This document shows positions 8,401 to 37,000 of a stretch of 64,000 nt of DNA, piece by piece. A program made the translations under genes and the position numbers. The stretch lies in NCBI GenBank assembly GCA_016926735.1, contig JAFGOA010000014.1, forward strand, positions 1-64,000. The letters are read 5' to 3'. The stretch comes from Promethearchaeota archaeon (lineage in GTDB: Archaea; Asgardarchaeota; Lokiarchaeia; Sigyniarchaeales; SOKP01). The notes below the pieces were generated by a model. It was not told where the DNA came from. It worked only from the letters and a program-made list of their open reading frames with translations, and did not search any database. Numbering within the stretch: the first letter of the stretch is position 1; each line of letters opens with the position of its first letter.

Positions 8401-8472
8401 AATAGATTTTTGTAGATTATTTTTTAATAGGAAGCGGGGTGGGCTAGCCTGGTTTATGCCGCAGGGCTCATA

Positions 8473-8502
8473 TATTGATAGTCATCCACTATTCTTTAAG
8501 AA
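8473..8502 (+). other. tRNA intron 1 (position 37/38)
   Basis: These 30 nt lie between anticodon-loop bases A37 and A38. The hairpin GATAGT-CATCC-ACTATT folds in the intron interior, as expected for a bulge-helix-bulge substrate of the archaeal splicing endonuclease. Confidence 0.8.
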
Positions 8503-8524
8503 ACCCTGAGAACATTGGTTCAAA

Positions 8525-8555
8525 AGTAGTAGACTGGTCTCCAGCAAACTGAAAA
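8525..8555 (+). other. tRNA intron 2 (T-loop)
   Basis: Thirty-one nucleotides in excess of a seven-base T-loop lie between T-stem halves ATTGG and CCAAT. Runs of A on both sides make the exact ends ambiguous by up to about three bases. The interior CTGG-TCT-CCAG hairpin flanked by AGT/ACT supports a folded intron. Confidence 0.75.
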
Positions 8556-8698
8556 TCCAATCCCCGCTATATTTTTCCTTCTTTTTATATTATTCCAAAT
8601 TAATAAAATTCATAATTTATTTCTAAATTAATAATTATGAATAAAAAATATCTAATAGTATAATATATAAAAAAAAGAAGAATCTAGGAAACGATAGA

Positions 8699-9442
8699 AT
8701 GAATGAATTACAGACTTTTCGAAGGTTACCTTCTATAAAATGTTGGATTACCCATATACTCAATGGAAAATATTCCATTAACAATAGATTTCTCTATACT
8801 ATTTTTGGACAAATTAAGAGAATCAGAATTGTAACAACAATTGTTGATAAGAAAGAGATCCTTAATAATCAACGAATTAATGAAGAAGATTTTCTAGAAG
8901 ATGAAAATCCTTCAAATGTTAGAATTGAATTTTATTTGGATGATGGTACTGGGTTGATCAGAGCAACATTATGGAGCGCAAATCCAGATGATTATAGTGA
9001 ATATAATAAGGGAGATAAAATTGATTTAGTTGGCATGATAAAATATTGGAATGGATTCATATCAATTTCTCCAGAGATTATCAGAAAATTAGAGGATCCG
9101 AATTTCTCTCTATTACATGATCTTGAAATAATTAAAAGAATTAAGAAAGGAGATTTACAAGAAATTCCTGATATTAATGACCTTAATTTTGAATTTGAGA
9201 ATAATATTAATGAAATTGATGTTGATTCTTTATTTAAAGAAGAAAGTTCTGAACACTCAGATTTAAAAGATAAAATATATCTTCTTATTGAAGAGCATAC
9301 ATTGAATGGTGAGGGTATAAGTCTTCAAAATTTACTTGAATTATTAAAAATTTCAGAAAATAATTTAAAAGAGAATTTAAAAAATCTAGAGATCGAATCA
9401 AAGATATATCAATCTGAAGATAATATATATCAATCTTATTGA
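8699..9442 (+). CDS. RPA32-like single-stranded DNA-binding protein
   Basis: This is a replication protein A subunit that coats single-stranded DNA in replication and repair. The single OB-fold spans about residues 20-150 (GQIKRIRIVTTIVD..., FYLDDGTGLIRATLWS, YNKGDKIDLVGMIKYWNGFISISPE). An acidic linker follows, then a C-terminal winged helix (about residues 185-247, GEGISLQNLLELLKISENNLKENLKNLE). The OB plus C-terminal winged-helix layout is that of eukaryotic RPA2/RPA32. The length of 247 residues is close to that family. It leads the run aIF2beta - DUF424 - NMD3 - RIO1 but is separated from it by about 100 bases. Confidence 0.85.
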   Translation: MNELQTFRRLPSIKCWITHILNGKYSINNRFLYTIFGQIKRIRIVTTIVDKKEILNNQRINEEDFLEDENPSNVRIEFYLDDGTGLIRATLWSANPDDYSEYNKGDKIDLVGMIKYWNGFISISPEIIRKLEDPNFSLLHDLEIIKRIKKGDLQEIPDINDLNFEFENNINEIDVDSLFKEESSEHSDLKDKIYLLIEEHTLNGEGISLQNLLELLKISENNLKENLKNLEIESKIYQSEDNIYQSY

Positions 9443-9542: not shown

Positions 9543-9956
9543 ATGGATTTAAATAAATATAACGAGCTTTTAGACAAAGCTTATGATAAAATTCCTGATA
9601 ATGTAAAAAAGTCAAGTAGATTTGAGATACCTAAAGTTGAAATACGTTATGAAGGAAAGAATACATATATCTCTAATTTTCAGAAGATCTTAACAACACT
9701 TGATAGAGATAGAAAACATTTTCAAGGTATTTTACAGAAAGCAGCAGGAACAATGGGAGAAATTCGGGGAAATCAACTATTCTTAAAAAGTAGATATACT
9801 GAACAAGTATTAGATAGATTAATAAAACAATATGCTAAGGAATATGTTTTATGTAATATATGCAACAAACCAGATACTACAATACAAAAAGAGGGTAAAA
9901 GACAATTTTTAAAATGTACTGCTTGTGGTGCAAGAATAGAAATTAAAGAAAAATAG
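9543..9956 (+). CDS. eif2b: Translation initiation factor aIF2 subunit beta
   Basis: This is the beta subunit of the heterotrimeric factor that brings initiator tRNA-Met to the small ribosomal subunit. The core IYSN-like helix and alpha/beta domain are present (TYISNFQKILTTLDRDRKHF, then LFLKSRYTEQVLDRLIKQYAKEYVLC). A C-terminal zinc finger follows (CNIC...CTACGARIEIK). At 137 residues it has the normal archaeal length, lacking the lysine-rich eukaryotic N-terminus. It is the first of four closely spaced genes and lies 1 kb from the initiator tRNA that aIF2 binds. Confidence 0.95.
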   Translation: MDLNKYNELLDKAYDKIPDNVKKSSRFEIPKVEIRYEGKNTYISNFQKILTTLDRDRKHFQGILQKAAGTMGEIRGNQLFLKSRYTEQVLDRLIKQYAKEYVLCNICNKPDTTIQKEGKRQFLKCTACGARIEIKEK

Positions 9957-34023: not shown

Positions 34024-37000
34024 ATGGAAAAATATAGTGATAAATCAATTGTCTATAATAGGGTATCCTATCTATTTGAAAAAGAAGATAAGAAAAATTT
34101 AGAAGATCTTTCAATAGATCTAAGATTTAAAAACTCTCATCTCTCAATATATATGAATGAATTAAAGGATTCTGAAATTGATCTTAGACCATTTACAAAT
34201 AAACGTCAAATTAAGAATAATCCTATAACAATTTCCTTAGATATTAATCCTCATAAAATAAAGGAATTGCACTCAATTAAAGTTGAATTATTCGATCTTT
34301 ATGATATTATCTCAGGTTATTCAATAACTATCCCTGCAACAGAATTCGCACCCTTTAAAAAATCAATTGAAATCAATATTCCAAGTATCCAACAATATCT
34401 CGACAAAATAAAATTAATTCCTATTTTTAAAAATCCAAATCCAAAGTATAAATTATATTATGATGGATATTATGGTTCTTCTCAATCTAAAAAACAAAAA
34501 CAAAAACAAAAACAAGATCAAACATCTGATATAAGTAGTGATTCTTCTAATGTTTATACTTGGTCTTCAATTTTCTTATTATTAATTCTGAGTGTTATTT
34601 TATTATTTATCAATACACCATATTATCCAATTCCCATTTTATCCATGATTTTACCAATAATTCTATTTTCAAAGAGAGACAACCATCGTAAGTATTTTAT
34701 AACTGCTGTACTTATTTTACTATTTTTAGTCTGCTTTCCAGTAATTTTTACAATAACCCCTCTAACAAATGTAAATTCCCAGAAACCTCATTTTGCAAAA
34801 GTATCATATTCATCAGGACAAAATACTGATGATTTGAATTTTGATACATTACAATATTATAATGAACTTGAGGATCTGGGAAAAATAACGATTAATGATA
34901 TAATCATTTTAAAATCTGAAACCTCCTTATCTCTTGCTCAGAGTTCCCAACAGATAGTAATTCTAATAGCACAAAATAATACAATTATTAATCCAAAATA
35001 TTATGAAAAATCATTTAATTTTAGATCTAATTACATTCAAGGTCCTAAAAAAAAAACAGATATATTAACTATAATAGATCTTAAGGATTATGATTTATTA
35101 CCTGGGGAATATAGACTTACAACATTTCTTTCTGTAAATAATTTCTACGGAGTTCAAAGGTCTGAACTTCTAACCTATAATATCTCCCTTGGAAGAGACG
35201 TATTACATATTGTTGGATCTGATCGATATAAAGAATTAGGGAAATATGGCTCTGTATATACAATTGATAATCAAGATTCTTTTACTACTTTCTATGAAGG
35301 AAGAATCTTAAATTCAGCTGGAATTGGTGTTCAATTAGATAATATGGAATTATATTTAGAAAAGAACAATAGATATCAGAAAATTGCAACAATATCAACT
35401 AATAATCAAGGATATTTTATTTATAATTACACTACAAAAGGATACTTTGAAGTTAATTCTCTTGCGAAAATAGAATTTGGGGGAAATGAGCTATATAATT
35501 CGTTAACACAAGAAGAATATGCTGGTCTTGAACAAAGTATTAGAGGGAAAAGGATCTTCTCTGATTTAAATGGAGATGGATATCCTGAATTTCCATATAC
35601 ATTAGAGGAATTAATAAATGCATTAAACAATGCAAATCCCATAGAAATTCTATCCTTTTTCACAGAATTCAACGAGATGAGTGGAGCTTATGTGTATGAT
35701 TCAATATTAAATTATCAAGGAGAAGTATTTGGAAATGTTAATTTAAATATAGAGGGAATTCGAGATAGTGGAGCACGATTTGATGGTCTAGGAGATAAGA
35801 TCTATACAAATTCAGAATTTAAAATGGGTGATGTTAATCATGATGGGAAAATTGATATTCTCGACGCTCTTATTACCGCCCAAAATTATGTGGGGCTAAA
35901 TCCAGAACCATTTTATCCAGAACAAGCAGATGTAAACGGAGATAATAATATAGATATTCTTGATTCATTGCAAATTGCTCAATATTATGTAGGACTAATA
36001 ACTGAATTTCCTAATTCAGATCCTTCAGAAATTACCTATGATAATTATGATTATATTAATTTCGGTGATATTCTCAGTAGTGATTTAGCTTATAATGATG
36101 AATTTGGACTCTCATTATGGATAAATCCAAGCAAATTTTCTTCTAATTTAAGCGAACATGGGGTAAAGAATTGTTTCTTCTCCAAAGGTGAAAATCTAGA
36201 GATTGGATTTAACGAAAGTGGGTATTTAATGGTCTATTTGAATACAAATAATATCGAAACCATTACATATTTTGGTCAGGAAAACTCAATTCAAAAGAAT
36301 TTATGGAATTATATAGCAATTCGCTTTGAAATGGGAGATGTTGATGCTCTTATCCAAGATTCTTGGTATTTAACTGATATATACGATTCTGAGCCTTGGA
36401 TAAATTATGTATCATTAGATTTGAGTGGGGATCTTATTATAGGGGCAGAAATCAATACTTTCAGCTGTTTTGGAGGAATTATAGATGAGCTAAAGATTTA
36501 TCGAGAAGCACCTTTACATTCAGAATTAGAGGAGACCATTTATTCTATATTGAGAATTGATAGTGCGACAGCATATAACTTTCAAGATAACAATTGGCAA
36601 GATATAACTAATGGTGAAATAATTGATGAATATATTCTATTTGAATGTAATAAAAGCAGAGATTCACTTGCTATTATAGAAAAAGTAGAATTCTATCTTT
36701 CAAATACTCCTTTAGATTATAATAATATCATAATTGATCAATGGAAACTCATAAAAGAATTTCATTATGACGCAAATAACTATAAATATATGTTGGATAT
36801 AAGAGATATTCCTGATGGTGACTGGTATTTTATAATAAAAGCAATAGATAATAGAAATAATGAGATTTTTAAAACATGTGAAGTATTAGAAAATGATATT
36901 TATTTTACAATTAGCAATTTTCAAGATAATATAAATTTCATATATCTAGGATATAATGACAAGATTAATTATAATTCACAAATAGGTTTAACAATAGATC

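Follow-up and report, generated by a model that had tools for sequence, protein, structure and literature searches.

Crenarchaeota are well documented to carry tRNA introns at positions 37/38, 45/46 and 59/60 and to have more than one intron in a gene (PMC4090602), and multiple non-canonical tRNA introns occur in Thaumarchaeota (PMC8450103). Among Asgard archaea, the main text of a 2024 study describes non-canonical multiple tRNA introns in Atabeyarchaeia and Freyarchaeia (PMC11291895). The locus considered here is a further example of this known archaeal habit: in Lokiarchaeia, introns come and go at the initiator tRNA gene while the finished tRNA remains unchanged.

The initiator tRNA-Met gene and its surroundings

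The 64,000-nucleotide stretch of DNA that was analysed (the window) is part of contig C69 of a Lokiarchaeal MAG of 3.88 Mb (238 contigs; 99.3% complete, 4.8% contaminated). On its forward strand, positions 8433-8569 hold an initiator tRNA-Met(CAU) gene carrying two inserts, as read directly from the sequence. The initiator hallmarks named in an earlier, sequence-only reading of this DNA are plainly legible: the acceptor ends AGCGGGG and CCCCGCT form an A1-U72 pair, and the anticodon stem CAGGG/CCCTG places GGG at 29-31 opposite CCC at 39-41, i.e. the GGG/CCC pairing typical of initiators. The discriminator base is an A (A73), and the gene does not encode CCA.

That reading had also seen two separate insertions of 30 and 31 nt, one of them in the T-loop, and both could be placed. 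Intron 1 (8473..8502, 30 nt) follows A37, thus occupying position 37/38, and has a relaxed bulge-helix-bulge (BHB); it was delimited by ortholog comparison and forms a hairpin in folds. Intron 2 (8525..8555, 31 nt) follows A59 in the T-loop (position 59/60), has a BHB and lies within a match to our RNA model R1 (8514-8561, 59.2 bits). Exon 1 (8433..8472), corresponding to residues 1-40 of the spliced query, comprises the acceptor 5′ strand, the D arm, the 5′ strand of the anticodon stem and the loop up to A37. Exon 2 (8503..8524), assigned by comparison and by its match to the spliced query, runs from A38 through the 3′ strand of the anticodon stem, the variable loop and the T-stem 5′ strand ATTGG to TTCAAA (T-loop 54-59), and exon 3 (8556..8569), identified from the sequence and the spliced-query match, consists of T60, the T-stem 3′ strand CCAAT, the acceptor 3′ strand CCCCGCT and A73; all five segments lie on the forward strand. 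Removal of both introns restores a normal tRNA, a 75-mer that ARAGORN calls as tRNA-Met(CAT) with a complete cloverleaf, and intron-free orthologs are nearly identical to it in sequence.

As expected for a gene interrupted twice, the unspliced form was missed by ARAGORN and by the Rfam search. Its folding energy is unremarkable (z-score −1.03; the pre-tRNA fold is no more stable than shuffles), and the case for the gene is therefore made by ortholog comparison: genes at the same locus encode a near-identical mature tRNA whether they have these introns, lack them or carry introns at other sites, so the resemblance is not due to chance. Directly 3′ of the gene, a T-rich stretch with two T5 runs (8572..8586, forward strand) likely marks the end of transcription; a T5 run occurs within 25 nt downstream of the tRNA gene in 28 of 53 orthologs.

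The surrounding genes are archaeal and encode eRF1, an RPA-like protein, aIF2-β, NMD3, RIO kinase and RNA polymerase B. When the conserved 5′ portion of the tRNA was searched for exact matches, 50 records came back, each carrying the label Candidatus Lokiarchaeota or Lokiarchaeia. Two conserved neighbours, both on the forward strand, were of particular use: the gene for the RPA-like single-strand DNA-binding protein (8699..9442; Pfam RPA_C) as a synteny marker, and that for aIF2-β (9543..9956; Pfam eIF-5_eIF-2B domain) as a guide to orthologous tRNA genes. In most family genomes read, the initiator tRNA gene is situated ~1 kb upstream of the aIF2-β gene with the RPA-like gene in between. Elsewhere on the contig, a single open reading frame with 11,373 codons extends from window position 34024 to position 68145 of C69 (L237); matches to Laminin_G_3, dockerin and Ig-like domains within its first 3000 residues suggest a giant surface or secreted protein.

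Intron structure and turnover in Lokiarchaeia

Searching via the aIF2-β neighbour reached the locus in 52 of 61 family genomes, and the tRNA was found upstream in most of those read. In total, 53 distinct Lokiarchaeal tRNA genes, including named records, were parsed (one row, L088, came through the parser incomplete, and L075 was kept separately, outside the 53). Across these genes the exons are nearly invariant and the introns variable: a single mature 75-mer is common to 37 of the 53, and the remainder differ mainly in the T-stem and the bases adjacent to it. Introns sit in the anticodon loop in 36 genes, in the T-loop in 26 and in the variable loop in nine, and two further sites lie in the D arm; the number of introns per gene is zero in five, one in 23 and two in 25. 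For instance, the same-genus relative L035 has both introns of the window, diverged in sequence but with their pairing kept. Even close relatives differ, one pair consisting of L054, with the T-loop intron, and L062, with no intron at all, and another of L052, with introns in the anticodon and variable loops, and L058, with introns in the anticodon loop and T-loop.

In the T-loop intron, exon UUCA pairs with intron UGAA to give a 4-bp central helix flanked by 3-nt bulges (AA·A and AA·U, the dot marking the cut), and cleavage behind the second base in both bulges restores UUCAAAU; the inner hairpin reads CUGG-UCU-CCAG. In an alignment of 21 such introns, 94.4% of cells in the BHB were paired and nine of 17 pairs had changed on both sides, and as the structure was drawn from the same 21 sequences, the paired percentage is biased in its favour and more weight attaches to the double changes. 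The covariation score was reached by none of 500 shuffles, and shifted control structures had at most 46% of cells paired. Covariation is found in the helices flanking the central helix; the central helix itself changes on one side only, because its exon side is fixed. The T-stem likewise covaries across the intron, being ATTGG/CCAAT in the window and GTTCG/CGAAC or ACTGG/CCAGT elsewhere. The inner helix of the window's intron consists of two pairs followed by a mismatch, and the minimum-energy structure of the T arm in the window lacks the UUCA/UGAA helix.

All 21 T-loop introns keep UG, U and CA of a hairpin motif UG-N3-U-M-CA (columns 26-34 of alignment A1); the anticodon-loop introns, in contrast, have no common loop. 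The central helix of intron 1 is CUCA/UAAG, in which a C34-A mismatch leaves three of four pairs in the window, with bulges UA·U and AA·A. The same mismatch is present in nine relatives (L035, L040, L053, L072, L074, L077, L080, L081 and L083), and many others have CUCA/UGAG with four of four pairs. It is thus the intron at the canonical position, 37/38, that has the more relaxed motif, whereas the 59/60 intron is a near-strict BHB.

Of the 65 family genomes, 26 gave a match to RNA model R1 at the T-loop intron, and 18 other genomes of the class gave none. Given this frequency, and since the main text of PMC11291895 reports intron-rich Asgard tRNAs with non-canonical positions, the sequence-only reading overstated the rarity of T-loop introns outside Thermoproteota. 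Within the window genome R1 found no other convincing site (next best, 17.5 bits). In another species, inspection of an R1 match revealed the same BHB motif in the T-loop of a tRNA-Thr gene (L202); two of three weak family matches (L203, L204) were discarded, as the sequence around them contained no tRNA. One ortholog (L074, genome G013) has a T-loop insert of 64 nt, roughly double the common size; a hairpin of the usual type lies towards its end, and the insert may represent one intron nested within another.

How the T-loop intron came to be distributed in this way is a matter of history rather than of mechanism, and we consider the chances evenly divided between an intron inherited from the ancestor of the family and then lost on many occasions and one that was inserted time and again or copied from one tRNA gene to another. 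The shared hairpin motif, a position that is identical everywhere and two intron-bearing sisters within the window's genus all speak for an ancestral intron. Weighing against it is the number of changes that would be needed. On a tree of 45 genomes built from three neighbouring proteins (RPA-like, aIF2-β and DUF424), the T-loop intron requires at least 12 changes of state, the anticodon-loop intron nine and the variable-loop intron seven, counts that are approximate because about one third of the branches are weak. The related BHB in the tRNA-Thr T-loop would fit transposition as well.

Splicing machinery and the status of the gene

The assembly contains exactly two PF01974 proteins, encoded at separate loci. 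One (L032), the α subunit, can be aligned almost end to end with Aeropyrum pernix EndA (3P1Z), retains Tyr, His and Lys as catalytic residues, and has a KPR sequence aligned to K44-P45-R46 of that enzyme. The other (L033), the β subunit, has Phe and Ser in place of the catalytic Tyr and His of M. jannaschii EndA. The lysine of the crenarchaea-specific loop (CSL), which has been tied to broad endonuclease specificity (PMC6379350, PMC12397907), is invariant in 25 Lokiarchaeal α subunits, i.e. those of 24 relatives and the window's own. The splicing endonuclease is thus predicted to be of the (αβ)2 type with a crenarchaea-like specificity loop, and such a pair is what the earlier expectation of an endonuclease of relaxed specificity called for.

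No match to RtcB (PF01139) was found in this 99.3%-complete assembly with its tRNA introns, the control archaea being positive; one recent wetland study reported both EndA and RtcB from every archaeal genome that was circular or near-complete (PMC12918454). An assembly gap, for which a MAG in 238 contigs leaves room, is the likeliest explanation. It appears unlikely that splicing in this lineage, which would extend to many tRNAs and among them its one clear initiator, dispenses with RtcB and uses another ligase.

As we envisage processing, the pre-tRNA would fold with both introns paired to exon strands, the loop strand CUCA with UAAG at intron 1 and the T-loop UUCA with UGAA at intron 2, the latter leaving two 3-nt bulges. 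An (αβ)2 endonuclease with the crenarchaea-like loop would cut after the second base of each bulge, a ligase would join the three exons into the normal 75-nt tRNA plus A73, and CCA would then be added to the joined tRNA.

On these comparisons, 8433-8569 is very probably a working initiator tRNA-Met gene with two protein-spliced archaeal introns. Were the interrupted gene dead, initiation would fall to another CAT tRNA, e.g. the tRNA-Met(CAT) of a tRNA array on contig C157, which is intron-free and does have A1-U72. However, the anticodon stem of that tRNA is TCGGT/GCCGG and not GGG/CCC, no second initiator with a GGG/CCC stem and no intron-free copy of the spliced initiator were found in the assembly, and GGGCTCATAACCC has no other copy there, even allowing one mismatch. 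Moreover, across many species the exons are near-invariant, with T-stem changes compensated across the intron. A pseudogene is accordingly very improbable, and the pseudogene check proposed alongside the sequence-only reading comes out in favour of a working gene. Its description of the initiator as single holds in so far as the assembly has one tRNA with the GGG/CCC stem, and needs qualifying in view of the A1-U72 CAT tRNA in the array. We give even less credence to the idea that the inserts are kept in the mature RNA as expanded anticodon and T loops: both lie at known splice positions with BHB bulges, close relatives such as L062 have the same tRNA without them, and an insert left in place at 37/38 would break the anticodon loop. 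If the gene does work as proposed, an essential tRNA that is the single clear initiator needs splicing at two sites, and the start of translation in this lineage would require a broad-specificity endonuclease.

The array on C157 belongs to a near-complete second set of tRNAs, almost intron-free and organized in compact arrays of conserved order. In the window genome (G000) the arrays span C157:7086-8394 and C157:12331-13605 (L154, L155) as well as C42:7266-7742 (L156). The second set was detected also in the sister species and in at least three genomes of another genus (arrays in relatives include L230, L231 and L232, the last with 27 genes covering all 20 amino acids). A 2019 survey found archaeal tRNA gene clusters only in Halobacteria and Methanobacteria (PMC6333295). 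The window genome additionally carries dispersed intron-bearing tRNAs; an automatic search for intron positions in its other tRNAs gave many ties and was excluded from the counts.

Relation to known archaeal tRNA introns

The closest counterparts of the T-loop intron are the 59/60 BHB introns of Crenarchaeota, Thermoproteales and Thaumarchaeota (PMC4090602, PMC8450103), which resemble it in position, short length, exon pairing, the presence of several introns per gene and the (αβ)2 endonuclease, predicted in our case. The present intron differs in occurring in Lokiarchaeia and in the initiator tRNA, and in having a hairpin conserved family-wide. The Atabeyarchaeia and Freyarchaeia tRNAs share with it the Asgard setting, non-canonical positions and multiple introns per gene, but those are other Asgard classes, and the main text of that report makes no mention of the endonuclease (PMC11291895). 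In Thermofilum pendens, as cited in PMC4090602, the T arm of the initiator tRNA-Met gene is likewise interrupted, and RNA processing makes the tRNA whole again; there, however, the gene is permuted, with new termini in the T arm, whereas here the order is ordinary and an intron intervenes.

With regard to the enzyme, the model is the A. pernix (αβ)2 endonuclease with its crenarchaea-specific loop (3P1Z; PMC6379350, PMC12397907), likened to ours by the near-full alignment of the α subunit, the KPR motif (K44, R46) and the catalytic residues. The homologue predicted here, known from its sequence, belongs to Lokiarchaeia, outside Crenarchaea, and would extend the crenarchaeal-type specificity loop well beyond that group. 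The syntenic locus, in turn, cleanly documents how tRNA introns have been gained and lost at five sites in relatives of the eukaryotic ancestor. While 59/60 introns and intron-rich Asgard tRNAs had already been published, the present analysis adds the Lokiarchaeal initiator case, intron turnover followed at the level of a single locus and the assignment of the endonuclease.
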